34,581 bases of DNA, taken from contig JANYBN010000184.1 of the NCBI GenBank assembly GCA_025360785.1, positions 1-34,581 of the forward strand, given 5' to 3'. The translations under genes and the position numbers were made by a program. This DNA comes from Geobacter sp. GTDB lineage: Bacteria > Desulfobacterota > Desulfuromonadia > Geobacterales > Pseudopelobacteraceae. Below are positions 5,154 to 34,260 of this stretch, in pieces (the stretch's first letter is position 1; every line of letters starts with the position of its first letter). The notes under the pieces were generated by a model that did no database searches, had not been told where the DNA came from, and worked only from the letters and a program-made list of their open reading frames with translations.

Positions 5154-5179
5154 TGCGTACCCCTTTGCTGGTTGACTCA

Positions 5180-8929: not shown

Positions 8930-9597
8930 AAGATGTCCTCTGTTTTTTTGACAGGATTGATTTCTTCGACCGTTTCTTCCTCCCACCCGTTCCACATTGG
9001 CTTGAAATGCGCCAGCGGGGTATGTCCGAGAGTGGCCAGATAGATATGCACGAAGAGAAAGGCGGTAAAACAGCAGGCCAGCAAAAAATGTGACCCTACC
9101 AGTATTTTTATCCCCCCCAGCAGGAGAAGCAGCTCGCGCAACGGCGCGACATACATCAGAAGCGCTCCGCTGAAAATAACCAGAGGCAATAGTATAAACA
9201 TGATTACCAGATACGCAGCCTTCTGCAGCGGGTTGAACTTGCTGTCCGGTGTGCTGTGATGCGGATTGGGCCTGCCGAAAAAGTAGGTAAGGAAATAGAA
9301 GTACGCCTGACGGAAGATGCCTGATTCAAGATCTTCCAGGGTCGGCACATACAGCTTCATCAGGCTGCGCGCCACGACGATGTAATATGTCAGCCAGAGC
9401 ATGTACGAGATGGAAACGACCACACCGGCGGTATCATGAAGCCTGATGGCGGCTTTATAGGCGCCAAAAATATTAATGTAATCGGGAAACCTTATCTGCA
9501 GCCCGGTGACGCATAAGGTAACGATTCCGAAAGCATTCAGCCAGTGCCAGATTCTGACCGGCATGGGTGTCATGTAAACCATCTCTTTATGCTTCAT
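8926..9597 (-). CDS. Cytochrome b membrane subunit
   Basis: This 223-residue inner-membrane protein has about four to five transmembrane helices. It belongs to the b-type cytochromes that connect the quinone pool to periplasmic partners (the thiosulfate/formate dehydrogenase gamma and HyaC group). The N-terminal motif [20 protein letters not shown] supplies a likely haem-ligand His. Further candidates are [15 protein letters not shown] and the [14 protein letters not shown] segment near the end. It overlaps the 7-haem cytochrome by 11 bases and the 9-haem cytochrome by 4, so the three are almost certainly translated together as a quinone-linked electron conduit. Direction of flow cannot be told from sequence. 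Confidence 0.88.
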
Positions 9598-10705
9598 GAT
9601 CGTTCTCCTTTCTGTTCTTTCTGGTCAGAAAGCGGAAGAAGCCATGCCCCACCGGCATAGACAAACCCGCTAAAACGATCAAAGCGCCGATAATGTTAAG
9701 CGGGGTGCTTCTGGTCGTGCCAAGCATGTAAAAATCCGGAGTGCCGTAAAGAATATCAAGGATGGCTCCTTTTTCTACAGGAACCCTGGAATACCCGCCG
9801 TTTTTTTCCGGAAAAGCGACAAAGCTCTTCTGCATGGCCTTTGGGCCGGAAGTGTGGCAGAAAGTGCAATCCCAGCGGTTGTCAAGAATCTGATAACTGT
9901 GGGTAACTACTTCCGGAGTCATCATGCCCCATAACCGCATATTCTTCCCGCGAAGCTGGTGATTGAACTCCCGCAGTTCCTTAAGTGAGACAAGATGGTC
10001 CCCGTTCTGGTCTATCACTCTGCTGATGTCTCCGCCGGTAGTAAGTTTGGCAAGTTCTTCATATGTAGCATTTTTGAAGTCACCTCCGGAGCCGGGCAGG
10101 CGACTTTCAATGGACATTGTGATGACATAATCCTTTGAACCGGTATGACAGGTAATGCAGGGGAGCGAATCGATATGCAGATCGGCCTGAGGCAGCCATT
10201 TGGAATGGCTTTGAATGGTTTTTCTGGTGTCATGGCACCTGGCGCACTTGCTGTTAATGTCTTCACCTGACACAAACAGCGGCAGCCTTACTTCATGCGG
10301 ATTATGGCAGCCGGTGCAACCGGCTTTTGAGCCATGAAGGCTTATTGAATACTCCTGATATATGGGGCCGTGGCAGTCTCCGCACGTCGCCCTGGAGGGG
10401 GCATAACCGTCACCGGGATGACCGGAGGAAACCCGGTCATGACAGGAAGTGCAGCCGACAACAGAATGCGTTGTGGCCCCGAACTTGTCCGGATCGATAT
10501 ATACGTGTTTATCGGCCGGACTGATAATTGCTCTCTGACCATGGCAGCGCATACACCTGTCATTATCAGTACGTAAGAGACTGTTTTCAGTTTCGCTTAC
10601 GAACTTATCCTGTTTATCCGGGCCTGGAACTGTTGCAGTAACGATTGCAGTCGAAAACAGGAAAACAGCCAGAAACGACCAAATGGTTCTGATATACACA
10701 AGCAT
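9587..10705 (-). CDS. Seven-haem cytochrome c with EF-hand-like loop
   Basis: This 372-residue membrane-anchored periplasmic cytochrome has a signal or anchor helix at residues 5-24. Seven CxxCH motifs begin at residues 51, 85, 108, 130, 154, 183 and 280. A C-terminal transmembrane helix (about 336-353) is followed by a basic cytoplasmic tail. Between haems 6 and 7, residues 232-243 ([12 protein letters not shown]) fit an EF-hand calcium loop with D, N, D, S and E at positions 1, 3, 5, 9 and 12. The ATG at 10705 has GGGAGAGGGAG upstream and gives a clean signal peptide, so I prefer it to the ATG 18 codons earlier. It is the first gene of the cytochrome operon. Confidence 0.88.
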
Positions 10706-10753
10706 GGCCTCGACTCCCTCTCCCTGCCGACTGAATTTGAAGTGGCTGCAACC

Positions 10754-10769
10754 GGGCATTAATATGCCC
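10754..10769. promoter_or_regulatory. Palindrome upstream of the cytochrome operon
   Basis: GGGCAT and ATGCCC form a perfect inverted repeat around a 4-base centre, 49 bases upstream of the 7-haem cytochrome start codon and on the far side of the divergent regulator. Position and symmetry fit a repressor or activator site, but no binding protein can be named. Confidence 0.4.
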
Positions 10770-19790: not shown

Positions 19791-20414
19791 TCAGACTGCA
19801 CGTTTCATATCCCTGAACCGCTTCAGCCGAAATGAGGATTCCCGTTCCCGCTCCCCCAGAAACTGGGCAATCGTCTTCACCTGGTTCTTCAGCTCCGGCA
19901 GAACCCGCTCCTCCAGAACCCTGATACGCCGCGTGACCCGCACCACCTCCTGCCCGAGCCGTTTGAGCCTGCTTTCATAGGCGGCAATCTCCAGCATATC
20001 CTGCAGGATCTGTTCGAAATGACGCAGGGCCTCCTCCAGACGGGATGTGGTGACCCGGTAATCGTAGCCCCGTCTATCCGGATGCCTGAGCGGCGATTCG
20101 CGCACGCTGACCTCCCGGTAATGCAGCCCCATCACGCTCCGCTCTCTGACCTCCACCCCCAAATCCCGTTCCGCCACGGCGGCTATTGATGCCATCATGT
20201 CATCTCCCTCGATGGCTTGAGAGAGCGCCAGTTCGCGTACGGCCAGGCCGTAGGCGGTCTGGACCGCGTCGCGCGACGCCAGAAACGGAGCGGAGGCGGC
20301 CAGCAGTTCCTTGATCAGCGCCTGCCGCCTCGCCTTGAGGATACCGTTGCTGTTCTGCACCGAGCGGCTTTTTTCCTTGAGCAGCAGCAGGTTGGTGCGC
20401 GTGGGATGGATCAT
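19791..20414 (-). CDS. atpD: A/V-type ATPase subunit D (central rotor)
   Basis: This 207-residue subunit forms the coiled-coil axle that turns inside the A3B3 head. The N-terminal motif PTRTNLLLLKEKSRSV and the C-terminal RLKRLGQEVVRVTRRIRVLE followed by LKRFRDMKRA are typical of the family. Its length is close to the usual 200-220. It is the last gene of the nine-gene ATPase operon and starts 13 bases after the stop of subunit B, with GGGGAG upstream. Confidence 0.95.
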   Translation of the reverse strand: MIHPTRTNLLLLKEKSRSVQNSNGILKARRQALIKELLAASAPFLASRDAVQTAYGLAVRELALSQAIEGDDMMASIAAVAERDLGVEVRERSVMGLHYREVSVRESPLRHPDRRGYDYRVTTSRLEEALRHFEQILQDMLEIAAYESRLKRLGQEVVRVTRRIRVLEERVLPELKNQVKTIAQFLGERERESSFRLKRFRDMKRAV

Positions 20415-20426
20415 CGCCGTCTCCCC

Positions 20427-21746
20427 TCACCCTTCCAGCGCAAAGCGCTGCATCAGCGCCAGCCCGGTATCCAGGCTTTCCGAGACCGTACGCCGCGTAC
20501 CGCCTTGATGAACCAGTTCCAGTTCGAAGACATCGGCAAAATCCAGCATCTGCCGATCCTGCCCGCTCAGGCCGTCCCGCCCGACGATCGCCTCCAGGCG
20601 GCGCAGGTCGCGCCCCCTGGCATAGTGGCGGTAAAGACGGTTGGCCAGCTGGCGGTGATCGGAGCGGGTGCGCCCTTCACCGATCCCTTGCTGCATCAGG
20701 CGCGACAGGCTGGGGAGCACGTCCACCGGCGGAAAGATCCCCTGCTGATGCAGTTCGCGCGACAGCACGATCTGCCCTTCGGTGATGTAGCCGGTCAGGT
20801 CGGGGATCGGGTGGGTTATGTCATCCTCGGGCATCGTCACCACCGGCAGCATCGTCACCGAACCGGCAAGGCCGCGGATGCGCCCGGCCCGTTCATAGAG
20901 AGATGACAGGTCGGAGTAGAGATAGCCGGGATAACCGCGCCGCCCCGGCAGCTCCTCGCGGGCGGTCGAAACCTCCCGCAGGGCGTCGCAGTAGTTGGTC
21001 ATGTCGGTGATCAGCACCAGCACGTCCATGCCGTGGCAGAAAGCCAGGTATTCGGCCACTGCGAGCCCGAAACGCGGCGCCAGCAGGCGTTCTATGACCG
21101 GCTCCCCGGCGCGGTTGATGAAGGCGGCGAAACCGCCCTGCATCCCGGCCAGCACCTCCATGTAGTAGGAATATTCGTGATGGGTCAGTCCCAGCGCCAC
21201 GAATACCACCACGAACCGGCCGCCACCCGCGAGGCGGGCGTTCTTCAGGATGCCGGCCGCCATCTCCTTGGCGGGGAGACCGGCGCAGGAGAAAATCGGC
21301 AGTTTCTGGCCGCGCACCAGGGTGTTGAGGGCGTCGATGGTGCTGAAACCGGTCTCGATGAAATCCTGCGGCCGGGCCCTGGCCACCGGGTTGATCGGCG
21401 CACCGGAGATGGCCCCCCACCGTTCCGGGATATATGGCGGCTCGTTGTCCAGCGGCGCGAACGAGCCGCTGAAGACCCGGCCGACCACCTCCACCGAGAG
21501 CGGCGCCCGCTTGACCGCATCGCTGAAAATTACGGTCGAAGCGGTATCCAGGCCGCGGGTCTCCCCCATGACCTGCACCAGCACCGTATCGCCGTCGATC
21601 TTGATCACCTCGCCCTCCAGCGGCTTCCCCTCTGGCGGGATGATGCGCACCACCTCGCCGAAGCGGACCTCCCGCACCCTGTCGAGGAAGATCAGGGGGC
21701 CGCGGATCGAGGAGACGGTGCGGTAGGCATGTTCACTGAGACGCAT
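20427..21746 (-). CDS. atpB: A/V-type ATPase subunit B (regulatory head)
   Basis: This 439-residue non-catalytic head subunit has the N-terminal barrel (GPLIFLDRVREVRFGEVVRI) and the family segment FSCAGLPAKEMAAGI at the place where the catalytic subunit has its P-loop. YCDALREVSTAREELPGRRG and YPGYLYSDLSSLYERAGRI also match. There is no Walker A, as expected. The ATG at 21746 overlaps the end of subunit A by 14 bases and has GGGGGGAG upstream. Its length is slightly below the usual 460. Confidence 0.96.
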   Translation of the reverse strand: MRLSEHAYRTVSSIRGPLIFLDRVREVRFGEVVRIIPPEGKPLEGEVIKIDGDTVLVQVMGETRGLDTASTVIFSDAVKRAPLSVEVVGRVFSGSFAPLDNEPPYIPERWGAISGAPINPVARARPQDFIETGFSTIDALNTLVRGQKLPIFSCAGLPAKEMAAGILKNARLAGGGRFVVVFVALGLTHHEYSYYMEVLAGMQGGFAAFINRAGEPVIERLLAPRFGLAVAEYLAFCHGMDVLVLITDMTNYCDALREVSTAREELPGRRGYPGYLYSDLSSLYERAGRIRGLAGSVTMLPVVTMPEDDITHPIPDLTGYITEGQIVLSRELHQQGIFPPVDVLPSLSRLMQQGIGEGRTRSDHRQLANRLYRHYARGRDLRRLEAIVGRDGLSGQDRQMLDFADVFELELVHQGGTRRTVSESLDTGLALMQRFALEG

Positions 21747-23367
21747 GTTCACTCCCCCCCTTCCTGAGCGCGACCTCAAGGGTATCGCCCCCGGCCAGGC
21801 ACGCCTCTAACCGGTCGTAATCGGCCAGGATTGCTTCGATCATCGCCATGATCTGTGCTGGGGCGCTGAAGGCATCTTCGCTGTAGGCGTTCTGACAGAG
21901 GAACTCCAGCCTGATCCGTTCCGCGCTGTGCAGGATCAGGCGGTCTTTTTCCTGCATCCCTTCAAGCCCCACGATCTCGGCCACCTCGCGCAGCGCCTCC
22001 TCCCGCTGGAGCAGGGTCCGGCAGCGCTGACGCGCCTCGCTCCATCCGGCGGCGACGCTGCGGGAAAAATGCTGTTCCATGGTCTGTTCATAAAGGGAAT
22101 AGCTCTGAAACCAGTTGACGGCCGGAAAATGACGGCGATGGGCCAGTGAAGCATCCAGCATCAGAAACGCGCCGGCGGTGCGCAGGCATGCCTGGGTTAC
22201 CGGTTCGGTGAAATCCCCGCCGGGGGGCGAGACCGAGAGAATCATACTCAGGGAGCCGATCGTGCCGTTCATGTTTTCCACCACCCCGGCCCGCTCCATG
22301 AAACCGGCCATGCGCGAGGCAAGATAGGTCGGATACCCCTCTTCACCCGGCATCTCCTCCAGCGACGACGAAATCTCGCGCAGCGCCTCGGCCCAGCGGG
22401 AGATACTGTCCGCCAGCAGCAGGACGTGGTACCCCATGTCCCGGAAATATTCGGCCATCGTGACGGCTGTATAGATCGAGGCCTCGCGGGCCGCCACCGG
22501 CATGTTGGAGGTGTTGGCCACCACGATGGTGCGCTCCATCAGCCGTCGTGACGTCCAGGGGTCGTGCAGTCCGGCGAACTCCTCCAGCAGTTCAGCCATT
22601 TCGTTGCCCCGCTCGCCGCAGCCGACGTAGACCACCAGATCCACGTCCGAGAACTTGGCCACGGACTGCTCCAGGATCGTCTTGCCGGTGCCGAAACCGC
22701 CGGGGATGATGGCGGTGCCCCCCCGCGCCAGCGGATAGAGGAAGTCCACCACCCGCTGCCCGGTCACGAGCGGCTCGGTCGGTGAGAGTTTACGCAGGCA
22801 GGGGCGCGGACGGCGGACCGGCCACTCCTGACAGACGGAGATCGGGGTCCCGTCGACATAGTTCCCCACCACCCGGCAGACGCTGTAGGAACCGGCGGTC
22901 ATGGCGGCAATCTCACCGTCACGTGGTGCGGTCACCAGGTGGTGGAAGGCGCCCTCCTCGACCCGACCGATGATATCGCCGCTCAGAACCCGATCCCCCT
23001 GGCGTTTATCCGTCGTGAAACGCCACTCGCGGGGGGAATCGAGAAGCGATGCGCTGCTGCCGCCGCTGATGAACGGGCCGTCCCGTTCCAGGAGCTTTTC
23101 CAGCGGGCGCTGCAGTCCGTCGAACATCCCGCTCAAGAGTCCCGGCCCGAGCTGGGCGGTGAGCATGCGCGTGGTGCCGCGCACCGGCTCACCCACTGCC
23201 AGGCCGCGAGTATCCTCGTAGACCTGCACCACGGCCCGCTCCCGCTCCAGTCGCACCACCTCGCCGGTCAGTCCGGACCTCCCCACCAGGACGATCTCAT
23301 AGAGCCGCAGCCCCTTCAGATCGACGGTCACGGTCGGTCCCGCTATACCGGTAATCCTGCCTGTCAT
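21733..23367 (-). CDS. atpA: A/V-type ATPase subunit A (catalytic head)
   Basis: This 544-residue catalytic subunit has Walker A GGFGTGKT, the catalytic-Glu segment GCGERGNEM, Walker B-type LLLADSISRWAEALREIS and the conserved EMPGEEGYPTYLASR. It hydrolyses ATP (or makes it when run in reverse) at the A3B3 head. At 544 residues it is somewhat shorter than the 575-590 common in archaea and Thermus; the difference seems to lie mainly in the N-terminal third and the C-terminus. The ATG at 23367 overlaps the stop codon of subunit F (ATGA), which rules out the longer start within that gene. Confidence 0.96.
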   Translation of the reverse strand: MTGRITGIAGPTVTVDLKGLRLYEIVLVGRSGLTGEVVRLERERAVVQVYEDTRGLAVGEPVRGTTRMLTAQLGPGLLSGMFDGLQRPLEKLLERDGPFISGGSSASLLDSPREWRFTTDKRQGDRVLSGDIIGRVEEGAFHHLVTAPRDGEIAAMTAGSYSVCRVVGNYVDGTPISVCQEWPVRRPRPCLRKLSPTEPLVTGQRVVDFLYPLARGGTAIIPGGFGTGKTILEQSVAKFSDVDLVVYVGCGERGNEMAELLEEFAGLHDPWTSRRLMERTIVVANTSNMPVAAREASIYTAVTMAEYFRDMGYHVLLLADSISRWAEALREISSSLEEMPGEEGYPTYLASRMAGFMERAGVVENMNGTIGSLSMILSVSPPGGDFTEPVTQACLRTAGAFLMLDASLAHRRHFPAVNWFQSYSLYEQTMEQHFSRSVAAGWSEARQRCRTLLQREEALREVAEIVGLEGMQEKDRLILHSAERIRLEFLCQNAYSEDAFSAPAQIMAMIEAILADYDRLEACLAGGDTLEVALRKGGSEHASQ

Positions 23368-23681
23368 TTTCTCACCTTTACCTGATATCCGACGGCCCTG
23401 CGGATAAGGCGTGTCGCATAATCCTCGCCGGCCCCGCTGATGCCGGGGGCCGGGAGCACCACCAGCACCCCGGGCCAGCGCCTCTCGCACGATTGCAGCA
23501 TCTCCTCGCCAACCTCCTCCACCAGTCGTTCATCAAGTATCACAACGCCGCTACCGGCCTCATCCAGCGCCCGCTCCAGGGTTTCGGCAACCTGCCCTGG
23601 GGACACGGCGTGCTGGATCGCCCCGCAGCAGGCAAAACCGTTGTCGGCATCGGCCGGAGTCAGCGCCACGATCATGTTCAT
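23364..23681 (-). CDS. atpF: A/V-type ATPase subunit F
   Basis: This 105-residue subunit sits on the central stalk. The fold is visible as alternating beta strands and helices: IVALTPADADNGFACCG, SGVVILDERLVEEVGEEMLQ and VLVVLPAPGISG, with the typical Pro-Gly loop. The length is normal. It overlaps the stop of subunit C and the start of subunit A by four bases each, so the three are translationally coupled. Confidence 0.88.
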   Translation of the reverse strand: MNMIVALTPADADNGFACCGAIQHAVSPGQVAETLERALDEAGSGVVILDERLVEEVGEEMLQSCERRWPGVLVVLPAPGISGAGEDYATRLIRRAVGYQVKVRK

Positions 23682-24658
23682 CGCCGCAACTCCATGCCGG
23701 CAGCTTCGATCCCCGCCGTTTCCAGGCGCTCCAGCAGGCCGATGTTGGCCGCCTCGTTGCCGCAGCGCCAGAGGTAATCAAGGACCATCCCGATGTCGTC
23801 TTCGCGGGCCAACCGGCGCATGACCCATCGCTGCGCTTCGTACAGCACCCGCTCCAGGTCGGCTGTCTCGCTAAAGGGAGCCTGCCCTCCCAGGCGCATG
23901 GCAAGATGCAGCAGCCACGCACTGTCCCGGTGCTTGAACAGTTCTGTCAAACGCGGCAGAGGCAGGGCGCCGCCTTCCAGCAGCGGGGGAATTGCGCTCA
24001 TCTGCCAACGCATCCGTTTGGCGACGGTGATCAGATTGCGGCTGTCAATCACCAGCGCAAGATAGCAGCGCATCTGCGGATTGACCCGCATGCGGGCCAG
24101 ACTTTGCAGCGATATTTCATACAGCGCCGACTCGACTGCGCCGGGACCGCCGCTGCGGTAAACATCCGTCAGCCCGGCAAAGCGTGGATCGTACCCGGAC
24201 AGGAGATCCGCCAGTTCCGCAACCGCCCTGGCACTGCCGTCTGAGTTGCGCAGCAGATCCTTTATCCCGCCCGCAAGCAGACTATTCCGCAGCAAAGTGT
24301 CGAGATCCGCTGCCACGGTCAGGAGCCGCAGACAGACGGCCAGCGTTCGTACCTCCGCCAGCCAGAAAAAGGGGGCTGTGGCACGACGCATCGGTTCGTC
24401 CATGCGCGAAAAAGCCCAAAAACACTCCTTCTGCAGGGCACAAAGGTGCCAACCCTCCGCGCCGGAGCGTGCCTCTCTCCAGGGAGCTGCGGCAAGCGTT
24501 GCCAGCGGCTGGCGGGCCAGCAGCAGCCGGTCCCAGTCGCGAACCAGAAACGAGCGGCGCCCTCTGATGCGGGTCAGCAGGCAATCTGCCGGCACCCCGG
24601 CCGGCATGTCGCGCAGTAGTGACCTCATGCCGGTTTCAAGAGGTTTAGCTTGACTCAT
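23678..24658 (-). CDS. atpC: A/V-type ATPase subunit C (d-type, rotor cap)
   Basis: This 326-residue all-helical subunit links the central stalk to the c-ring. The sequence is weakly conserved, as expected for this subunit. Family-like features are DPRFAGLTDVYRSGGPGAVE and QMRCYLALVIDSRNLITVAKR (the segment around the conserved D-x-x-N). The position between E and F supports the call. The ATG at 24658 overlaps the stop of subunit E (ATGA). Confidence 0.85.
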   Translation of the reverse strand: MSQAKPLETGMRSLLRDMPAGVPADCLLTRIRGRRSFLVRDWDRLLLARQPLATLAAAPWREARSGAEGWHLCALQKECFWAFSRMDEPMRRATAPFFWLAEVRTLAVCLRLLTVAADLDTLLRNSLLAGGIKDLLRNSDGSARAVAELADLLSGYDPRFAGLTDVYRSGGPGAVESALYEISLQSLARMRVNPQMRCYLALVIDSRNLITVAKRMRWQMSAIPPLLEGGALPLPRLTELFKHRDSAWLLHLAMRLGGQAPFSETADLERVLYEAQRWVMRRLAREDDIGMVLDYLWRCGNEAANIGLLERLETAGIEAAGMELRR

Positions 24659-25221
24659 ATCCGGCGCCCCCGCAATTCGGCCATCAGGTGCGGCAACAGG
24701 TCGGGCCACAGCCTCTCCAGCCGCACCTCCATCGTGTTGTCAACGGTCAGGCTGTCGTCTGCAGCCGCGACTTTAAGTCCACCGGACACCGTTTCATCGG
24801 CAATGATCGTCGCACCTGGAAAACGGCCGGAGGCCTGTGAAATATCGCCGGGGTTGGTCCGGACGGTCTGCCACGACACTTCCGGCAGTTCGGCCGCCAG
24901 AATGAGGAAGAGCCGTTCACTGTCGTCCGATCGCAGACGTTTCAGGCAGATGCCGGCGCGCTCAAACAGCCGCAGCGACAGGGCATGCTCGGTCCTCAGG
25001 CGGATCAGGGCCGCCTCGCGGGCTGCCTTGGCCATGAGCACCTGCTTCCGGGCGCTGCAGAGAAGTTCACGCTGCTGCTCGTGTGTCCGCCGCAGCTCTT
25101 CGCGGCGCTCCTCGGCCCGGGACCGCAGCTGTTCCTCCTCCGCTTTCCCCCGTGCGGCAATGGCGGCCATCTTTTCACGACCCTCGCGGCGCAAGGCCTC
25201 AAGCAGTTCACGCCGGCCCAT
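24655..25221 (-). CDS. atpE: A/V-type ATPase subunit E (peripheral stalk)
   Basis: This 188-residue protein begins with a long charged helix (LLEALRREGREKMAAIAARG through to about residue 105) that pairs with the G/H subunit. A globular C-terminal domain follows, with GATIIADETVSGGLKVAAAD and NTMEVRLERLWPDLLPHLM matching the end of the family. It anchors the head against rotation. It lies ten bases after the c subunit gene. Confidence 0.9.
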   Translation of the reverse strand: MGRRELLEALRREGREKMAAIAARGKAEEEQLRSRAEERREELRRTHEQQRELLCSARKQVLMAKAAREAALIRLRTEHALSLRLFERAGICLKRLRSDDSERLFLILAAELPEVSWQTVRTNPGDISQASGRFPGATIIADETVSGGLKVAAADDSLTVDNTMEVRLERLWPDLLPHLMAELRGRRI

Positions 25222-25230
25222 GAATCCGGC

Positions 25231-25443
25231 TCACTTGTTGAGGATCATGGTGGCGACCACGAACCCCAGGATCACCATGGTTTCCGGGATGGCCAGCAGA
25301 ATGATGACCGTACCGGTCAGTTCCGGGCGTTCGGCAATGGTGCCGGCCCCGGCCGCACCGATCCGTGACTGGGCCCAACCGGTGGCAATGGCGCACAACC
25401 CGACAGCCAGTGCGGCGGCAAAACAGATCAGAACCTTTTCCAT
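25231..25443 (-). CDS. atpK: A/V-type ATPase subunit K (c-ring proteolipid)
   Basis: This 70-residue two-helix hairpin forms the ion-carrying ring. The first helix runs to GWAQSRIGAAGAG, the loop is AERPELTG, and the second helix has the ion-binding E54 in IPETMVILGFVVATMIL. Q25 lies at the place of the Gln ligand in Na+-type rings, and T55 follows E54, so an ion site of Gln, Glu and Thr is possible. A single two-helix unit, as in F-type and many archaeal rings, is present rather than a duplicated four-helix one. AAGGAGGGACACGT before the ATG is the strongest ribosome binding site in the operon, fitting the need for many copies. Confidence 0.94.
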   Translation of the reverse strand: MEKVLICFAAALAVGLCAIATGWAQSRIGAAGAGTIAERPELTGTVIILLAIPETMVILGFVVATMILNK

Positions 25444-27326
25444 ACGTGTCCCTCCTTGGTAGTTTGTGCCTGCTTGTGCAACGGTTCGAACCGTTTACCC
25501 CCCGGTTCGATGAACTTGCTGAAAAACTCGACGAAATGAAGCCTCAGAGCATGGATTGCGGGCGCGAACAGCCCTAGCACGATGGCCACGGCATGCAACA
25601 CAATTGCGGCCAGCGTGCCGAGGATCAGGTCGCCCGACAGCCCCGCCAGATGGTTGGCCGCGTTGGCCAGCAGCGCCGAGCTGAGGCCGATAGCCATGAT
25701 CCTGGCATAGGAGATGATGTTGCCGACCGTCTTGATCATCTCCAGAGGTGCCAGCAGGCCGCCAGACAGCACCAGCAGCGGCAGCAGCAGTCCGGTCAGC
25801 AGCAGGATCGGCCTGGTGAGCAGCCAGGGAGACGGGAACAGCTGGGAAGTCGCCAGGTACGCCAGGCAGGCGATTAGCGCGATGGTGATGATGCGGACTG
25901 CGGCCTCGCCACGCTTGCGGCGTTTGACAGCCGTTATCACCCCCAGCAGCAGGCCGAACACCACATGGGAGGCCCCGAGCGCCAGCGAAAAGATCAGCAT
26001 CGGCATGACTGCCCGACTCCGTTCCGGAAGCAGCGGCGTCAGGTGCAGCAGTCGTCCTCCGGCCTCTCCGAAAAACTCTCCGAACAGGATGCCGAACAGT
26101 ACCGCGTAGCTGGAGGAGATCAGCAGGATGCGTGCGGCATCTCCGGTCGCCCCCTGCGGCCGCCGCCACAACAGCAGCAGGGACGCCGCCAGCAGGACCA
26201 GACCGTGCCCGGCATCGCCCAGCATCATGCCGAAGAAGAGCGGGAAGAATATCGCGATAAACGGGGTCGGATCCCGGGAGGAATAGCGTGGAAGCGGCAG
26301 GAGACGTGTGAAGAGCTCGAACGGCCTAAAATAGGGAGGATTACTGAGCGCCACCGGAACCTTCTCCAGATCCTGCTCCAGAATCGCGCGCTGCTCCACC
26401 GCGACCCGGCCGCCGAACTTTTCGTTCAGGCGCTCCGTCAGGGGGGCGGTGGCATCCGTCAAGGCCCAGCCATGGATCAGAAAACACATGCCGGTCTTGT
26501 GGACCGAACCGGTCACCGTCAGCAGCGCAATACGCTCTGCCAGCCACTGATCGATCCGGCGGTAAAAGGCCAGCCACCGCCGGGCAAAGCGTTCCTGTTC
26601 AGCCTCTATTTCCGCCATGCCGAGGCGGGTTGTCGCAAGACGATTCTCAACAAAGCTGATCCGTTCCGGCAGGGAGAGGTTGTTCAGGGATTCCGGGAAG
26701 GGAAATTCGGGCAGCTGTTCGTCGCTCAGGGCTTTCTTGATAGCCATGCTGCGTGAAGGTGGCGTGGCAATCAGCCCGATCAGGGTGCCGTCGGCGGCAA
26801 CAGCCGTGGTAAGGGTGCACTCTCCGTCCACAAGATACGCCAACACATCGCGCAGCCGTTCGACAAACGAGGCGTCGCGCAGGGTGATGCCGATAAACTC
26901 CAGGCCGCTGCGCACGTCCCGATCCTCGATGAGCCTGTCAATGGCCGACAGCAGCATATCGTAACGTTCAAGCTCATCCAGGTCCCGGCGCAGGGTTTCA
27001 AAACGTTTGGCCAGTTCGCGGCAGGTGGTCAGGTGTCTCGTGGCGGTTGCGGCGATGGTGTCCAGGATGGTCAGCGGGTCGAGCCAGCTCTCGCGGGTTT
27101 CCAGCGGCGGCAGGAGCGAAATGATTTCGCCGGTTTGAAGGCGCATATTCTCAAGAAAAAGCCTCTGAACCACGGTCCGATCATCGGAAAGCTGCGCCCG
27201 CTGACCGTCGCCGGCGACACCCGCCTCTTCCGGCTGGAAGGCGCCCTGTTCCCTGATGACCTCCAGCACATCGAGGAGAAGTTCCTTGGGGCCGGCAATT
27301 TCAAGTTTGCTCATCCTGACGATCAT
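25428..27326 (-). CDS. atpI: A/V-type ATPase subunit I (a-type membrane stator)
   Basis: This 632-residue subunit has a cytoplasmic N-terminal half (to about residue 300) with coiled-coil stretches, then about seven to eight transmembrane helices. The membrane half begins with DPTPFIAIFFPLFFGMMLGD and contains GDAGHG, then FGILFGEFFGEAGG. The helices near the end include SYARIMAIGLSSALLANAAN with the conserved Arg that faces the ring Glu. It forms the ion half-channels. The ATG at 27326 has GGAGGG upstream and overlaps the stator gene by 26 bases; a second Met four codons later is less likely. Confidence 0.94.
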   Translation of the reverse strand: MIVRMSKLEIAGPKELLLDVLEVIREQGAFQPEEAGVAGDGQRAQLSDDRTVVQRLFLENMRLQTGEIISLLPPLETRESWLDPLTILDTIAATATRHLTTCRELAKRFETLRRDLDELERYDMLLSAIDRLIEDRDVRSGLEFIGITLRDASFVERLRDVLAYLVDGECTLTTAVAADGTLIGLIATPPSRSMAIKKALSDEQLPEFPFPESLNNLSLPERISFVENRLATTRLGMAEIEAEQERFARRWLAFYRRIDQWLAERIALLTVTGSVHKTGMCFLIHGWALTDATAPLTERLNEKFGGRVAVEQRAILEQDLEKVPVALSNPPYFRPFELFTRLLPLPRYSSRDPTPFIAIFFPLFFGMMLGDAGHGLVLLAASLLLLWRRPQGATGDAARILLISSSYAVLFGILFGEFFGEAGGRLLHLTPLLPERSRAVMPMLIFSLALGASHVVFGLLLGVITAVKRRKRGEAAVRIITIALIACLAYLATSQLFPSPWLLTRPILLLTGLLLPLLVLSGGLLAPLEMIKTVGNIISYARIMAIGLSSALLANAANHLAGLSGDLILGTLAAIVLHAVAIVLGLFAPAIHALRLHFVEFFSKFIEPGGKRFEPLHKQAQTTKEGHVWKRF

Positions 27327-27645
27327 CGGCACCCTCCGGGAGGATACGGGCAATATGGTGAAGCACGACTTTGTCCAGCTCCTGGCTATCCAGCTGTTCC
27401 AGCCGCAGGGCAAAGGCCCTGGCCTCGGCCAGCAAAGCATCCGCTTCCTGCTGCGCGCCCTGACCGGCCTTGATTTCGGCTTGTGCCAGCTCGGCCTGCA
27501 GAGCCGCGGTCTCGTCGCCCAGCATCCGGTCTAGCTCCCGGCGGAGCGTTTCCAGCCGTTCCGCCGTTTGCTGTTCCAGGGCGTCTAACTGCAGGCAGAT
27601 ATCACGTTCGGCGGCGAGTATGTCTGACAGCAGTTCGTTATCCAT
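27301..27645 (-). CDS. A/V-type ATPase G/H-like stator subunit
   Basis: This 114-residue charged protein is almost entirely helical (AAERDICLQLDALEQQTAER and on, with ALQAELAQAEIKAGQGAQQE), as expected of the G/H-type subunit that pairs with subunit E in the peripheral stalk. It is the first gene of the ATPase operon, the usual place for this subunit. The ribosome binding site before the ATG at 27645 is weak (GGGTG). Sequence identity in this family is low, so the call rests on length, coiled-coil character and position. Confidence 0.8.
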   Translation of the reverse strand: MDNELLSDILAAERDICLQLDALEQQTAERLETLRRELDRMLGDETAALQAELAQAEIKAGQGAQQEADALLAEARAFALRLEQLDSQELDKVVLHHIARILPEGADDRQDEQT

Positions 27646-27714
27646 TATCGGCACCCGATTTGAGATGGAGCTGGCTCTGCGCATACATTTGAATTCTACC
27701 AAACTTTTATGATT

Positions 27715-29454
27715 TTACAGGATGGCTGCAGAAGTTTTTCCTGACAGAGGCGGCGATACAGTCTCGGTCCTACCTGGCTTGGGGCGAATCAGCGCGGTAA
27801 AGCACTTGAACAGATGGTATCTCTTCCCGATCACGCTCCAGTCCAGCTCGCGCTTTCCGCAGAGCGAATCGAGCCCGTTCAACTGCTGAATTTCCTTCGC
27901 CAGGTCAGGACCGATAGTGCCGGCTTGATCAAGCAGTGCGACAACCTTACGGGCCATGGCGATATGCTCCTTGATCTCACGGGCGTCCGCTGCCGGCACC
28001 AGTCCGTGACGCAGCTTGAGATCGATGAGCGCCTCCGCGCCGTCATAGGTGGCATTGACGATATCATCGCGCGACATCCAGTCGGTCTCGTAGTTCAGTC
28101 GCTGTTTCCAGCCAGGCATCAGCATGGCCTGACGGTGTTCGCCCAGGGTGTGGTACAGCAGGTGATAGCCCATTTTCCCGGGTTCCTGGAAGATCCTGCT
28201 GCCGGGATCGACAAAAGGCGCCAGCGGGGCGATCATCGGGAGAAGCTTGCTGCCGTATCGATTCAGGAGTTCCCCGCAGTAGGCCACCGCATCCATCACC
28301 GAACCGTATGTCTGGAAGGGCAGCCCGACCATAAAGAAGAGGTCTATCCGTTTGCATCTGCTCGCGACAAGGCTTTCAAGCGCTGATTCCAGCTCAAGGT
28401 TGTCGAACTGCTTGCCGAAGGCACGTCTGACACGGAGGTCGTGCGACTCGGGCGACAGCTCAACGTTGAAATTAACCACACTCTCCTCCAGCAGCCCCAC
28501 AAAACGGCGGGACGGAGGTTGAAAGAACTCGAAGGCCAGCTCGTTGGGGATATTGTGAAGACGGATGGCTTTGAGGAAGGTTTCTGCATACTCCTCACCC
28601 CCCTGGAGCAGGTCGCCGATGATCATGATCGGCACGCCGCTGTATCCGGCGATGGCGGCGATATCTTCAGCCAGGAGCTGCGGCGAGCGGAAGGCCGGTT
28701 TCGATCTGGTGCAGGTACTGCTGAAGGCTGATGATGAGCCGCCGCAGGTGGAACAGTCGTGCAGACAGCCACGACACGTAAATACCGCAAGCACCGGATG
28801 TTCGAACCAGTTGGCGTAGGGGAGATACCCCACCGGGTCGCGGTGTTTGACGAGCATACGGAAGATGTGGGAGTAATCGAAACGGACATGGTCCAGGGTA
28901 TCGGGGATCCAGGAAATCCCGTTATCAACCACCACGCCGTTGTCGCGCCACACAAGGTTGGGCACCTGCTTGAAATCTCCGCCGCTCCGGATAGCTTCCA
29001 TCAGCAGGCGCAACGGTTCCTCAGTGGAATCACCGCAAACGACAAAGTCGATACAGGGATAATCCCGCATCAATTCGTCCCGGAAATAGGTGGCCGACAG
29101 GCCGCCCACAATCACAGGGATATCCGGATGCTGCCGTTTGAGCTGCGCGGCCAGACTGAGGCAGCCGTCCACATGCGGCAGCCAGTGCAGGTCAATGCCG
29201 AAGGCGTGTGCCGAAAGGCCTGCGGTAAAATGTTCCGCGTCGAAAGAGAGGGCGCGAAGCATTTTGAGGGCCAGATTAACGATCCTGACCGAGATGTCAT
29301 GCCTGGTGAGGTACTCCGACAGGGTCAGGAAACCGATCGGATACCCCTCGAAAATAGATGTGGACGGAATGACGTCGCTGACCGGACCCATAAAACAGGT
29401 AAGTTCGCGGAAGCGGAATATGCTGGGCGGGTGCAGCAGGATCAGGTCGGTCAT
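27715..29454 (-). CDS. B12-binding radical SAM protein
   Basis: This 579-residue protein has an N-terminal cobalamin-binding-like domain (YPIGFLTLSEYLTRHDISVR, VIVGGLSATYFRDEL, IDFVVCGDSTEEPLRLL). A radical SAM domain follows with CLHDCSTC, the CxxxCxxC cluster motif, preceded by another Cys pair (FTCRGC). Later segments FNVELSPESHDLRVRRAFGK and IDLFFMVGLPFQTYG fit the radical SAM barrel. Members of this class often methylate or rearrange carbon skeletons, but the substrate here is unknown. The start is the ATG at 29454 with AGGAAA upstream; a GTG two codons earlier is an alternative. It lies 69 bases upstream of the ATPase operon on the same strand and may be cotranscribed with it. Confidence 0.85.
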   Translation of the reverse strand: MTDLILLHPPSIFRFRELTCFMGPVSDVIPSTSIFEGYPIGFLTLSEYLTRHDISVRIVNLALKMLRALSFDAEHFTAGLSAHAFGIDLHWLPHVDGCLSLAAQLKRQHPDIPVIVGGLSATYFRDELMRDYPCIDFVVCGDSTEEPLRLLMEAIRSGGDFKQVPNLVWRDNGVVVDNGISWIPDTLDHVRFDYSHIFRMLVKHRDPVGYLPYANWFEHPVLAVFTCRGCLHDCSTCGGSSSAFSSTCTRSKPAFRSPQLLAEDIAAIAGYSGVPIMIIGDLLQGGEEYAETFLKAIRLHNIPNELAFEFFQPPSRRFVGLLEESVVNFNVELSPESHDLRVRRAFGKQFDNLELESALESLVASRCKRIDLFFMVGLPFQTYGSVMDAVAYCGELLNRYGSKLLPMIAPLAPFVDPGSRIFQEPGKMGYHLLYHTLGEHRQAMLMPGWKQRLNYETDWMSRDDIVNATYDGAEALIDLKLRHGLVPAADAREIKEHIAMARKVVALLDQAGTIGPDLAKEIQQLNGLDSLCGKRELDWSVIGKRYHLFKCFTALIRPKPGRTETVSPPLSGKTSAAIL

Positions 29455-29686
29455 GGCCACAGTTTCCTGAATGCAAAGAATGTGATGACGTTATGAACAT
29501 GGGAAAATTTGACGCCTTTTCCGAGATGATAGCAGTATTTACCCTGATTTCAATGCAGGATGAATTATTTTTTACGGACGGCTTGCGGAGTCAAATATGG
29601 GGGATATACTTTCATTCACAGATGGGTATATCAAAATAAAAAACCATTGCCATGCCGTTACAGCCGGCAGAGAAAGGGAGGGCACC

Positions 29687-30889
29687 ATGCTCGGATCACC
29701 CTTTGACCTCTGGAAGGATGATGAGTCATGTAGCGAATATCTTGCACGTCAGGGGGTCAGCCGGCGTCAGTTTCTGACTCTGTGCGGCCGGGTCGCCGCC
29801 GTGCTCGGATGCGGGGGACTGGTGGCCGGTGGCCGGACTAAAGCACTGGCCAAAGAGGTTGCCGACCGCTTGACCGGCGCCAGGCGGCCGGTTGTGGTCT
29901 GGCTGCAGCTGCAGGAGTGCACCGGCTGTCTTGAAAGCGCCCTGCGCTCCGGCGACAGGACCATAGAGAACCTGATCCTGAGCATGGTCTCCCTCGAATA
30001 CAACGAACTCCTGATGGCTCCCTCGGGAGAACAGGCCAACGCAGCTTTGAGCAAGGCCATTGAGCAGCCGCACCTGCTGGTAGTGAACGGGTCGATACCG
30101 CTTAACGACAAAGGGGTCTACTGCGTGATCGGCGGAGAAACCTCCGAAGCGCTGCTGCGCAGGGCCGCCGTAAATGCCGTGGCGGTGCTGGCGGTGGGAG
30201 CCTGCGCCCATTACGGTTGCATCCAGGCAGCCTCCCCGAACCCGACCGGCGCAGTCGGGGTGGCGAGCATCATCAAGGACCGCCAGGTCGTAAATTTAGC
30301 AGGCTGTCCCCCTATCGGCGAGGTAATCACCGCCACGCTGCTCTACTACCTGGTATACGGCCACACGCCACCGGTTGATCACGACGGCCGGCCGCTGTTT
30401 GCCTATGGCCAGCGGATTCACGACAAGTGCCCGCGCCGTGCCCACTACGATGCCGGACAGTTTGTGGCCAGCTTTGACGACGATAATGCCCGCAAGGGGT
30501 ATTGCCTCTACAAGATGGGCTGCAAGGGGCCGGCCACTTTCGCCCCCTGTCCGGTTATCGGCTGGAATCAGGGCACCGGATTCCCGATAAGGGCCGGGCA
30601 TCCCTGCCTGGGGTGCACCGAGCGCCACTTCTTCGACCAGATGACCCCCTTCTATAAGCGCATCCCCGATCTTGATGTGCCTGGAATCAGCGTGGAACTC
30701 ACCGCCAACAGAATCGGCGCCGCCATGGTGGGCGCCTCCGTGGCAGGCGTAGCCGTGCATAGCGCCGCCACGGTGCTGCGCAAGTACCGGACCCGCAAGG
30801 AAGAGCAGGAGCCGGAATCCCTGCCGCTGGCCGCTCTGGGAGAGGAAGACACCCCGGGTCAGGATAACGATACGACTAAATCAAAATAA
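29687..30889 (+). CDS. hyaA: [NiFe] hydrogenase small subunit (Tat-exported)
   Basis: This 400-residue electron-transfer subunit of a group 1 uptake hydrogenase has a Tat signal with SRRQFL (25-30) and three Fe-S clusters. Proximal-cluster candidates are C78, C81, C173 and C207, with an extra C178. Distal-cluster ligands are H245, C248, C273 and C279. The medial cluster has C288, C307 and C310 with P300, so probably 3Fe-4S. A C-terminal membrane helix (about 340-358) anchors it to cytochrome b, followed by an acidic tail. The ATG at 29687 has AAAGGGAGG upstream; the longer start would place 30 odd residues before the Tat signal. The 230 bases before it hold no gene that I can support and no convincing promoter. 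Confidence 0.96.
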   Translation: MLGSPFDLWKDDESCSEYLARQGVSRRQFLTLCGRVAAVLGCGGLVAGGRTKALAKEVADRLTGARRPVVVWLQLQECTGCLESALRSGDRTIENLILSMVSLEYNELLMAPSGEQANAALSKAIEQPHLLVVNGSIPLNDKGVYCVIGGETSEALLRRAAVNAVAVLAVGACAHYGCIQAASPNPTGAVGVASIIKDRQVVNLAGCPPIGEVITATLLYYLVYGHTPPVDHDGRPLFAYGQRIHDKCPRRAHYDAGQFVASFDDDNARKGYCLYKMGCKGPATFAPCPVIGWNQGTGFPIRAGHPCLGCTERHFFDQMTPFYKRIPDLDVPGISVELTANRIGAAMVGASVAGVAVHSAATVLRKYRTRKEEQEPESLPLAALGEEDTPGQDNDTTKSK

Positions 30890-30928: not shown

Positions 30929-32647
30929 ATGGCAACCCAGCGAATAGTCATCGACCCGATCACCCGCATCGAGGGGCATTTACGGATAGAACTTGAAACC
31001 GACGGCGACAGGATCAGCAACGCCTGGTCCTGTACAACCCAATTCCGCGGCATCGAGAAGATCATGCAGGGTCGCGACCCCCGGGACGCCTGGGCCATGG
31101 TCCAGCGGATCTGCGGGGTCTGCACCGGTGTGCATGCGGTGGCCTCGATCAGGGCGGTGGAAGACGCCCTCAAATACCCCATCCCCAGGGCCGCCGAACT
31201 GATCCGGGATCTGATGATGGAAATGGGAACAGTCCAGGATCATGTGATCCATTTCTATCATCTGCACGCCATGGACTGGGTCGATGTGGTCAGCGCCCTC
31301 AAGGCGGATCCGGCGCAGACCGCCCGCCTGGCCGCATCGCTGTCCGATTGGCCGACCAACTCCGCCGCCCATTTCAGCGCGGTGCGCAAAAAGCTGCAGG
31401 AGTCGGTGGCCGGCGGGCAGCTCAGCATTTTCAGTAATGGTTACTGGGGACACCCGGACTACAAGCTTCCCCCCGAAGCCAATCTGATGGCCGTTGCCCA
31501 CTACCTGGAAGCTCTGGAGTGGCAGCGCGACGTGATCCGTCTGCAGACAATCTTCGGCGGCAAGAATCCGCACCCCAATTTCCTGGTGGGAGGCATGGCC
31601 TGCTCCATCAATATGGATAACCAGCTGACGATCAATCAGGTTTCGCTGGCGCAGCTGGAGGGAATGGTGCAGCGCGCCAGGGATTTTGTCGAGAAGGTTT
31701 ATTGCCCGGATGTGATGGCGATCGCTTCGTTCTATAAGGAGTATGCCGACATCGGCATCTCCAGCCCGCACCTGATGGCGGTCGGAGAGTCAGGTTATTC
31801 CAGCGCCGGAGCCCCTGCCGGACAGTTGAAACCTGGCTTCGTCACGGACGCCGATATCAGGAAACTGACCCCTTTCGATCTCAACAAGATCTCCGAATAC
31901 ATCACTTCCTCCTGGTATGCCTATCCGGACGGCGACAAGGCCGGCCGCCATCCCTGGAACGGCGAAACCACGCCGCGCTACACCGGCCCGACGCCACCCT
32001 ATAAGCACCTTTCCGACAATCAGAAATATACCTGGTGCAAAGCGCCACGTTACGACGGCATGGCGATGCAGGTAGGCCCGAATGCCCGGCTGATGGTCGC
32101 CTATTCCCAAGGACACGCCGAAACGGTGAAACTGCTCGATGACGCCATGCTGAAGCTCGGCATCAGGCCGTCACAGCTCAACTCCACGCTGGGGCGGACT
32201 CTGGCGCGTGTTCTGGAAACCCAGCTCCTGTCCCGGCGCATGACGGAAACGTTCGCCAAGCTTGTGGAAGGGATCAAGCAGGGGGATGTAAATACATTTA
32301 ATCCGGTGTTCTGGGATCCTGATTCCTGGCCGAAAAGCGCCCAGGGGGTGGGGTTTGTCGAGGCTGCACGCGGGACTCTCAGCCATTGGGTTCAGATAGA
32401 AAACCGTAAGATCGTGCGCTATGAATGTGTAGTGCCCAGCACCTGGAACAGCTCGGGCCGTGACCCTCAGGGGCAGCTGGGGCCGTACGAGCATGCCCTG
32501 GCCGGCAACGGACGCCATCCCCTGCGTGACCCGCAGCGCCCGCTGGAGGTTTTGCGAACCATACACTCATTTGATCCGTGCCAGTCCTGTGCGGTGCACC
32601 TGACCGATCTGCGCGGCTCTCCCCTGGGGGAGGTGATTGCGCGATGA
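30929..32647 (+). CDS. hyaB: [NiFe] hydrogenase large subunit
   Basis: This 572-residue catalytic subunit has the N-terminal DPITRIEGHLRIE and the L1 motif RICGVCTGVHAV, giving two of the four Ni-binding Cys. The C-terminal L2 motif DPCQSCAVH gives the other two. The protein ends 15 residues after that His (TDLRGSPLGEVIAR), so it is made as a precursor that a maturation protease must trim. It oxidises H2 and passes electrons to the small subunit; both are carried out together by the Tat system. AAAGGAGCGATC precedes the ATG. No maturation protease or hyp gene lies in this window. Confidence 0.97.
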   Translation: MATQRIVIDPITRIEGHLRIELETDGDRISNAWSCTTQFRGIEKIMQGRDPRDAWAMVQRICGVCTGVHAVASIRAVEDALKYPIPRAAELIRDLMMEMGTVQDHVIHFYHLHAMDWVDVVSALKADPAQTARLAASLSDWPTNSAAHFSAVRKKLQESVAGGQLSIFSNGYWGHPDYKLPPEANLMAVAHYLEALEWQRDVIRLQTIFGGKNPHPNFLVGGMACSINMDNQLTINQVSLAQLEGMVQRARDFVEKVYCPDVMAIASFYKEYADIGISSPHLMAVGESGYSSAGAPAGQLKPGFVTDADIRKLTPFDLNKISEYITSSWYAYPDGDKAGRHPWNGETTPRYTGPTPPYKHLSDNQKYTWCKAPRYDGMAMQVGPNARLMVAYSQGHAETVKLLDDAMLKLGIRPSQLNSTLGRTLARVLETQLLSRRMTETFAKLVEGIKQGDVNTFNPVFWDPDSWPKSAQGVGFVEAARGTLSHWVQIENRKIVRYECVVPSTWNSSGRDPQGQLGPYEHALAGNGRHPLRDPQRPLEVLRTIHSFDPCQSCAVHLTDLRGSPLGEVIAR

Positions 32648-33810
32648 ACGCCCCATCAAATGAAGATATACATGTCTCCCTGGGCCTTCCGATTACGTTT
32701 GAAGGAGAGAAAAAGCGAAACCTGCTGGTGGCGGCTGCACTCGGAGCCCCGGCAGGCACGCATGATCCGGTCGATCTGGCGCTGCTCAGTGCCGCCTCCC
32801 GTCAGGAGGATTTGCGGCACTATCAGCAACTGTCTTACTCGCCTCCCGACCCGCAATTCAAGCGGAGCATTACCCGGATTCGCCATTTGGATACCGGCCT
32901 GGAGGAGATGATTGCCCGTGGCGATCTGGAGTCGATCCTCTACCTCTGCCGGGCCGGTGAATCGACCCGTTATCATGCCGGCAAGGAGGCGTACCTGCAA
33001 GAAGTTGACGACTTTCGGGTGATCGGTGTTGCGCATGGCAGCGCGCAGCCGGACGGCGGCGAGCAGTGGGCTTTTCTCGGTTTTATCCCGGTCAAGGCCA
33101 CCCGCCGCAAAGCCGGTCGCAAGGAGGCGCCCAACGCCTACCGCTATGTGCCAGTGTGGGATTGGCAGCTCCGTTTCCTGCATTGGGCGGCCTTCGTTAC
33201 CATCCTGACGCTCTGCCTGACCGGCTGGCTGATGGGAAGCGCCCGGCTGGCCTATGCCGGTACCGACGGCGTTCCATATTTTATCGGTTATCTGCGGCTG
33301 GTACATTTCACGGCAGGCTGGCTGCTGGTAAGCCTGGGAATCCTCAGGATTGCCGGCCTCTTTCTGGCGTCGACCAAATACCAGCGCTGGCGGGCCCTGT
33401 TTCCGATCTCTGTGAATGATCTTAAAAACCTGTACCGGGTCGGGCGCAATTACCTGTTCTGCATCTTCGAGCACGGCCCCCACTATATCGGTCACAATCC
33501 GCTGCAGCAGGTCGCCTACACAGGAATTTACCTGATGGCGCTGCTGGCAATAACGAGCGGTTTCTGCCTCTACTCCGCCTATGACGCCAACTTCTGGCTG
33601 TTCACTCCTTTCACCTGGCTGAACGGCCTGATCGGACTCCAGTACATGCGCCTGATTCATCTCTTCATGATGTGGATCTTCCTGGCGTTCATACCTATCC
33701 ATGTCTATCTGGCCATCCGGTCCGATACAATCGAACGGGAAGGTTCGATCTCGTCGATTTTCAGCGGCGGGCGGTGGTGCCGCAAGGGAACCAAGTTTGA
33801 AGACGGATAA
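32644..33810 (+). CDS. hyaC: Hydrogenase cytochrome b with P-type-ATPase N-domain fusion
   Basis: This 388-residue protein is a fusion. Residues ~165-385 are a standard HyaC: WQLRFLHWAAF (H180), RLVHFTAGW (H221), GHNPLQQVAY, and RLIHLFMMWIFLAFIPIHVY (H339, H353) in four helices. It passes electrons from the small subunit to quinone. Residues ~10-155 resemble the N domain of P-type H+/cation ATPases: SLGLPITFEG, LLVAAALGAP, DPVDLALL (41-48), SPPDPQFKRS (66-75), ARGDLESILYLC (91-102), FRVIGVA and WAFLGFIPV. The DKTGT phosphorylation motif and the P domain are missing, and the KGAPE lysine position reads ARGDLE. Normal HyaC has about 220-240 residues. The ATG at 32644 overlaps the hyaB stop (ATGA) and has GGGGGAGG upstream. 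Confidence 0.9.
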   Translation: MNAPSNEDIHVSLGLPITFEGEKKRNLLVAAALGAPAGTHDPVDLALLSAASRQEDLRHYQQLSYSPPDPQFKRSITRIRHLDTGLEEMIARGDLESILYLCRAGESTRYHAGKEAYLQEVDDFRVIGVAHGSAQPDGGEQWAFLGFIPVKATRRKAGRKEAPNAYRYVPVWDWQLRFLHWAAFVTILTLCLTGWLMGSARLAYAGTDGVPYFIGYLRLVHFTAGWLLVSLGILRIAGLFLASTKYQRWRALFPISVNDLKNLYRVGRNYLFCIFEHGPHYIGHNPLQQVAYTGIYLMALLAITSGFCLYSAYDANFWLFTPFTWLNGLIGLQYMRLIHLFMMWIFLAFIPIHVYLAIRSDTIEREGSISSIFSGGRWCRKGTKFEDG

Positions 33811-33924: not shown

Positions 33925-34260
33925 GTGGAGAAGAGTCAGCTCGAAGCGATTGCGTATATGAATGTCCTGAAAAAAACGAGAAGGCGCCGCAAATATTTTT
34001 TCTTCACTGTACTGATTTATATTCCGGCCTTATTGATTGTCCATCAAATCTCTCCTACCAACAGAGCCATGGGCACTCTGTTTGGAGTATGGCTGGTAAT
34101 ATTGTTCATAGTCACTTTTCTGGTCGCCCTGAGCAAATGTCCAAGATGCGGCAACTATTTCCATCTTCACGGCATGACTCTTCTGATTCTGCGTAAATGT
34201 CTTCACTGTCAACTTCATATAAAGGAAAATGAATTTGCACCAACTAAAAGGCCACTCTAA
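33925..34260 (+). CDS. Membrane protein with C-terminal zinc-ribbon motif
   Basis: This 111-residue protein starts with GTG; the ribosome binding site GGGAGGAAGTAA just before it decides the start. A basic N-terminus (KKTRRRRKY) precedes two hydrophobic helices (about 24-41 and 50-68). A short cytoplasmic domain follows with CPRC (72-75) and CLHC about 17 residues later, likely one zinc site. I do not recognise a family. It follows the hydrogenase operon by 114 bases on the same strand and may be an accessory gene, but no direct link is visible. The stop codon lies inside the loop of the terminator hairpin. Confidence 0.7.
   Translation: MEKSQLEAIAYMNVLKKTRRRRKYFFFTVLIYIPALLIVHQISPTNRAMGTLFGVWLVILFIVTFLVALSKCPRCGNYFHLHGMTLLILRKCLHCQLHIKENEFAPTKRPL

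Follow-up and report, generated by a model that had tools for sequence, protein, structure and literature searches.

A proton-pump nucleotide-binding domain joined to the cytochrome b subunit of a [NiFe] hydrogenase in Geobacterales

Here we describe a [NiFe] hydrogenase operon in a 34,581-nucleotide stretch of Geobacter sp. DNA (contig JANYBN010000184.1 of GenBank assembly GCA_025360785.1; this whole stretch is called the window below). Its three genes lie in the order small subunit, large subunit, cytochrome b, as they do at the further loci of this kind that we read. The last gene encodes a HyaC-like cytochrome b whose N-terminal part had been predicted, from the letters of the window, to be the nucleotide-binding (N) domain of a P-type ATPase. 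We consider it practically certain that this N-terminus is the complete N domain of a P3A-type H+-ATPase, excised between the hinge on the DKTGT side and the hinge on the DPPR side. The features concerned are as follows.

29,687 to 30,889, forward strand: [NiFe] hydrogenase small subunit, HyaA-like (PF14720 and PF01058; TIGR00391 over its cut-off)
30,812 to 30,841, forward strand: small-subunit tail motif PESLPLAALG, 3' of the C-terminal helix, found in fusion operons only; proposed docking peptide
30,929 to 32,647, forward strand: [NiFe] hydrogenase large subunit, HyaB-like (PF00374, E 2.5e-216)
32,644 to 33,810, forward strand: HyaC-like cytochrome b with N-terminal P-type ATPase N domain, 388 residues
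32,668 to 33,099, forward strand: P3A-type ATPase N domain, about residues 9-152 (sequence profiles, alignment and fold match)
33,100 to 33,153, forward strand: basic linker, residues 153-170, of low model confidence and probably flexible
33,154 to 33,768, forward strand: b-type cytochrome domain, residues 171-375 (PF01292, TIGR02125 and a match to 4gd3), with four predicted transmembrane helices

The ATG of the fusion gene overlaps the stop codon of the large-subunit gene in an ATGA, with GGAGG upstream, and the same ATGA start is present in 19/19 fusion genes compared. The small subunit is of the twin-arginine translocation (Tat) type (SRRQFL) and has a hydrophobic C-terminal helix followed by a tail. 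Its open reading frame as listed begins at 29,597; homologues favour 29,687 (L031-L033 begin MLGSPFDLW or MPGSPFDLW). The genes flanking the three-gene operon vary by lineage in the seven loci read.

The C-terminal part of the fusion is a hydrogenase b-type cytochrome. It scores 131.9 bits against TIGR02125 (cut-off 121.5), matches E. coli HyaC (4gd3) and has histidines at 180, 221, 339 and 353, the putative haem ligands. Lysines and arginines number 7 in the linker, 5 in loop 2 and 5 in the C-tail, compared with 1 in loop 1 and 0 in loop 3; to judge by this charge pattern and the helix positions, the N domain probably lies on the cytoplasmic side of the membrane. In enzymes of this family, whose small subunit is of the Tat type, the catalytic part faces the periplasm. 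The linker, with 7 lysines or arginines in residues 151-172, is modelled at a predicted local distance difference test score (pLDDT) below 50 at 155-172. The only Pfam matches to the window protein are cytochrome b561 at 171-375 and, inside the same span, a weak DUF4405, and the first ~165 residues are therefore anonymous to that library; an ATPase match to the domain is likewise missing from Pfam for all of the 16 members searched.

Several independent lines of evidence identify these anonymous residues. All of the motifs that the original prediction had read as those of an N domain (GLPITFEG, DPVDLALL, SPPDPQFKRS, ESILYLC, FRVIGVA and WAFLGFIPV) are found in the translation of 32,644-33,810, and the phosphorylation motif DKTGT, said to be absent, is missing from the 388-residue protein and from all 20 fusion proteins that we recovered. 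The domain is also cleanly cut, as had been proposed, in that 20 fusions align with 16 pumps nearly without gaps over the stretch bounded by the strand that follows DKTGTLT and the strand that precedes DPPR; the boundaries, first put at the initial ~155 residues, are refined to about 9-152. With the first 166 residues as query, a search of 141 genomes of the order Geobacterales found a cytochrome b extended in the same way in 20 genomes, among them that of the window (identity 48-81% in the other genomes), together with a second class of matches at 17 places, in frames of 790-972 aa and at E 2e-14 to 3e-4. Sixteen long frames were translated, ten from this search and six from a profile search of the phylum, and these are P-type ATPases, since DKTGT and DPPR occur in 16/16. 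A 16-row fusion profile matches the long ATPase frames with E values as low as 1.5e-23; the strongest match spans positions 12-152.

The profile search that had been suggested as a check likewise led to P-type ATPases by three routes other than Pfam. The NCBIfam family TIGR01647 (proton-efflux P-type ATPase) matches 13/13 fusions, a count that omits the contig-end fragment L042, with window residues 20-150 set against profile positions 312-439 at E 8e-8; the scores are far under the whole-protein cut-off, as expected for a single domain. Searched against the PDB, the fusion profile found three sequences only, all of them plasma-membrane H+-ATPases (E 1e-4 to 6e-4), where a single-sequence phmmer search gave a chance-level match only, so that profiles are needed. 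Alignment of the fusion with eight ATPase N domains by hhalign gave 99.8% at E 6e-28; when the cytochrome part of the fusion served as negative control, the match was limited to 9 columns that are common to both alignments by construction. The predicted fold is also that of a P-type N domain. An AlphaFold (AF2) model of the domain from 14 sequences reached pLDDT 85 and a predicted template modelling score (pTM) of 0.81, and Foldseek ranked Pma1 first among its matches (E 2e-9). VIA alignment gave Z 20.1 for Pma1 (9ugb; root-mean-square deviation 3.2 over 156), Z 18.0 for 5ksd (the plant pump AHA2) and Z 14.7 for 3gwi (an isolated Mg-ATPase N domain). That the observation of an N domain was right follows from the agreement of these independent profiles and fold matches.

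The fusion is confined to one order in the genomes searched. At class level it was found in 20/277 genomes at E <= 2.3e-88, the next matches being 8e-18 and weaker in frames of 586-972 aa, and the 20 genomes belong to three families and six genera of Geobacterales. In a phylum sample of 395 genomes drawn from a larger group it occurred in 2, both of the same order; these searches scored at most 12 (class) or 8 (phylum) candidates per genome. A scan of species genomes with two peptide patterns, which divergent relatives without those peptides would escape, returned 13 loci (Geomonas 5, Geobacter sp. 4, Desulfuromonadaceae bacterium 2, Citrifermentans bremense 1 and Deltaproteobacteria bacterium 1), and a scan of viral contigs found no relative of the fusion. 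Short frames in G141, G506 and G238 were considered as further fusions and set aside; they contain DKTGT and look like cut, shortened or broken pumps. In two other short-frame candidates (G221 and G143) the contig ends fall at the domain, and two long cytochrome frames (L087 and L088) had no N-domain match in the order-wide search. Unfused cytochromes b listed for the order lack the N domain, and most of their frames measure 220-270 aa; identity to the cytochrome part reaches at most 41% among these and at most 37% in the phylum sample. A second, unfused cytochrome b is present in 13/19 genomes with a full fused match, the window's genome being counted among the 19.

In a tree of N domains, those of the fusions form one clade (100/100); it joins most P3A pumps with support of 96/94, and its stem measures 2.29 changes per column. 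The P3A and P2 labels in this tree are our own and were assigned from scores over or under the TIGR01647 cut-off or from sequence; five divergent rows that were given the P3A label do not group with the others, and the program warns of long branches. Left out were L081 and L082 (no DKTGT), L084 (broken frame), L114 and L115 (over-long) and identical rows. On this tree, the fusion arose once in one order, changed fast early and was then constrained. Of the 141 genomes of the order, 20 have a P3A pump that scores above the TIGR01647 cut-off, and 5 of these 20 are fusion genomes (Fisher p 0.16); given this p value, and given that the fusion clade stands on a long stem beside the pumps, no donor pump can be named. 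The ratio of nonsynonymous to synonymous substitution rates (dN/dS) is 0.086-0.197 for the N domain and 0.025-0.173 for the cytochrome part in the same 13 pairs, hand-picked out of 171, and 44 columns of the domain are invariant in 14 sequences. The N domain is thus conserved under purifying selection. The original prediction had offered a structural relic as one possibility; in the sense of decay this is unlikely, since the dN/dS of the domain is low in every pair computed.

What remains of the ATP site was read through an alignment of the fusions to the pumps, and the equivalence of residues with those of SERCA, taken from that alignment, is our assumption. According to two published accounts, Phe487 and Arg560 anchor the nucleotide in the N domain of SERCA (PMC3203174), and only P1B and P6 pumps lack the otherwise conserved lysine of the N domain (PMC10654040). 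The adenine-stacking Phe, equivalent to Phe487, is lost in 20/20 fusions (Leu in 13, Pro in 6, His in 1), and the Lys of KGA, whose replacement had been pointed out in the window (Arg92), is Arg in 20/20, with KGAPQ changed to RG[DEN][LV][DE]; 16/16 pumps keep both. Arg125, equivalent by alignment to Arg560, is Arg in 19/20 and Lys in one, and the lysine beside the Phe loop (Lys73 in the window) is Ala in 11, Lys in 5, Arg in 3 and Cys in 1 of the 20. The fusions have also acquired invariant positions of their own, at Thr39, Ala51, Asp56, Arg58, Arg78, Ala91, Tyr100, Ala116 and Glu140 and, on the linker side, at Ala152 and Arg154. To judge by these residues, the domain is one that appears re-purposed under selection, with ligand binding weakened but not surely lost, and a weakened form of ATP sensing is possible.

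A second feature of these operons, new here, is the motif LPLA[AV]LG in the tail of their small subunits, which measures 37-49 residues from HS[AV]ATV near the end of the helix. Eighteen small subunits could be read from 18/20 fusion genomes (the short contigs of G016 and G074 carry none), and 17/18 have the motif in frame, 16 of them within PE[ST]LPLA[AV]LG[DE]; the tail of L086 has the variant SEPLPLAVLGD. In the 18th (L035, 4902-5250), PETVPLAILGD (VPLAILG) sits in the neighbouring frame, and this metagenome record therefore appears to be frame-shifted by one base or misread. The motif was found in 0/14 ordinary small subunits of the order, recovered by word pattern from 20 regions and including four from fusion genomes (G037, G046, G094 and G124), and in 0/19 unfused small subunits of the phylum (21 recovered from 30 loci, two being fusion operons), 33 unfused in total; it was also found in 0/200,000 shuffled tails. 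This suggests a putative interaction between the tail motif and the N domain.

On this evidence, a whole P3A pump N domain was joined once, in one bacterial order, to the N-terminus of a hydrogenase cytochrome b and then retained under selection. Without a phosphorylation domain and the adenine-stacking Phe, it would no longer drive transport, and we propose that it may serve the hydrogenase as a module for docking or regulation in the cytoplasm. In a specific version of this proposal, the domain would grip the cytoplasmic tail of the small subunit at LPLA[AV]LG and so couple the anchor that holds the catalytic dimer in the membrane to cytochrome b, controlling assembly or the step from haem to quinone, perhaps with residual binding of a nucleotide or other anion at Asp44, Arg92 and Arg125. 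We regard a docking or regulatory role as the likeliest of the mechanisms considered, ahead of a sensor, a checkpoint and a passenger, even if taken alone it does not quite amount to a probable one; the whole statement, from a single addition through selection to the present module, is offered tentatively, as something less than an even bet. A bolder form, in which binding of a ligand (nucleotide or anion) or of the small-subunit tail would open or close the passage of H2-derived electrons to quinone, seems to us doubtful; if true, an energy-coupling enzyme would be gated by part of a proton pump.

Several observations weigh against this proposal. In 10/13 pairs, constraint is weaker on the N domain than on the cytochrome part. 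Asp44 and Arg92-Gly93 are invariant (20/20), and Arg125 nearly so, as would be expected of a ligand site. A model of all 388 residues (pTM 0.41) leaves the placement of the domain against the membrane undefined. The unfused small subunits listed are at most 52% identical, hence no close unfused sister was available for comparison, and since the tail motif characterises the same clade as the domain, a single event of descent may account for both. Finally, the tail motif could bind something else, such as the cytochrome's own conserved C-tail or a maturation factor.

The strongest alternative, unlikely as we judge it, is that the domain is a sensor that has kept the ability to bind ATP, ADP or some other phosphorylated ligand in the cytoplasm and thereby modulates electron flow from H2 to quinone. 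The intact modelled fold and the constancy of the putative ligand residues speak for it, and the change of Lys to Arg is conservative; since P1B and P6 pumps do without the conserved lysine, its loss need not abolish binding. Set against these points are the disappearance of the adenine-stacking Phe from every fusion and the loss of the lysine at the position of Lys73 from all but a quarter of them (5/20 keep it). Less probable again is a checkpoint in assembly or maturation, at which the domain would bind the small-subunit tail, or a chaperone in the cytoplasm, by the time Tat export is under way or earlier, and play no part in the finished enzyme. A Tat-type small subunit with a conserved tail would suit such a role, as would the fact that no maturation gene was recognised by eye near the operon in the seven loci, whose neighbours were not searched against families; at these same loci, however, no partner gene adjoins the operon in all lineages.

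A further possibility, to which we give slightly less credence than to the checkpoint, is that the captured domain is a structural passenger, which folds and merely spaces or stabilises the N-terminus of the cytochrome with neither partner nor ligand. Altered pump-specific positions, the long stem ahead of the crown of the clade and the weaker constraint relative to the cytochrome part are what a passenger would lead one to expect; yet dN/dS still lies at 0.09-0.20, the invariant columns are numerous, the domain persists in three families, and the order's unfused cytochromes b manage without it. Last, an assembly join, a frame error or a chance resemblance, which might be suspected where the window is one contig of a 229-contig draft and Pfam has no ATPase match, can be dismissed almost outright, given fusions in 20 genomes that include single-contig ones (G031, G038, G040, G046 and G124) and named isolates, an unvarying ATGA start, and the agreement of profiles and fold.

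The remainder of the window holds further genes. Directly upstream of the hydrogenase, at 19,791-29,460 on the reverse strand, lie V/A-type ATP synthase genes (subunit D, two of alpha/beta type, C/AC39 and I), and a B12-binding radical SAM gene (TIGR04190, over its cut-off) sits between these and the hydrogenase; by eye, L032 has the same order of ATP synthase and radical SAM genes, and L033 has the radical SAM gene, split over two frames. Past the operon, at 33,925-34,257 on the forward strand, is a 111-aa open reading frame with weak zinc-ribbon matches in a stretch with a guanine-plus-cytosine content of 0.44. A second cytochrome b561 (PF01292), unfused, is encoded at 8,926-9,597 on the reverse strand, within 8,165-10,759, and is adjoined by a cytochrome c7-like multihaem protein (8,165-8,995) and a 390-aa gene without an NCBIfam match at 1e-10; the segment 8,165-10,759 is a cluster for b-type and multihaem electron transfer and an internal control that has no N domain. 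At 2,478-5,180 on the reverse strand is a 900-aa UPF0182 membrane protein (PF03699, E 1.5e-293). Elsewhere in the same genome (G000:C160) there is a second hydrogenase small subunit, with 52% identity.

To our knowledge, P-type N domains occur only inside pumps, and we found no description of an N domain-HyaC fusion in the literature, as judged by titles and the beginnings of abstracts in a coverage from which subscription journals were mostly absent. Other Geobacter hydrogenases have been described: the uptake hydrogenase GSU0782-0785 together with one from a subsurface clade (PMC2825233), one associated with CO dehydrogenase (PMC2996986), and Hya, GSU0120-23, among others (PMC7894505). The present fusion is a case in which an N domain was transferred whole to a respiratory membrane complex unrelated to pumps, where selection has maintained it, and it offers a natural test of what the N-domain fold can do without phosphorylation chemistry. 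It may also mark a point in the cytoplasm from which a hydrogenase active on the opposite side of the membrane is controlled. Since the fusion is present in named strains of Geomonas and Citrifermentans, which are environmental bacteria, its function is directly testable.

Altogether, the fusion operons can be set beside three known systems. They resemble the ordinary Hya-type hydrogenases of the order, which we assume to be of the kind of G. sulfurreducens Hya, in that genes for the small subunit, the large subunit and cytochrome b follow one another. The ordinary operons (L120-L139) differ in that they have no N domain and that in 14/14 recovered small subunits the tail lacks LPLAxLG; all 14 also read C[AT]G[DN][TS]E in place of ECTGC, one Cys being replaced by Asp or Asn. 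With HyaC of group 1 [NiFe] hydrogenases (TIGR02125; the E. coli Hyd-1 cytochrome, 4gd3), the fusion shares four helices, four histidines and a place in a hydrogenase operon, and it differs by the ~165 extra N-terminal residues that form the ATPase N domain. With the N domain of P3A H+-ATPases (Pma1 and AHA2; TIGR01647), it has in common the whole fold and the order of elements between the DKTGT-side and DPPR-side strands, including a motif like DP[IV]D, a P-x-D/E-P loop, the Gly that follows the lysine of KGA, [FY]R..GVA and W.F.G..P. Unlike those pumps, the fusion has Leu, Pro or His for Phe and Arg for Lys, has no DKTGT and no P, A or transmembrane pump domains, and carries its N domain attached to a cytochrome b.

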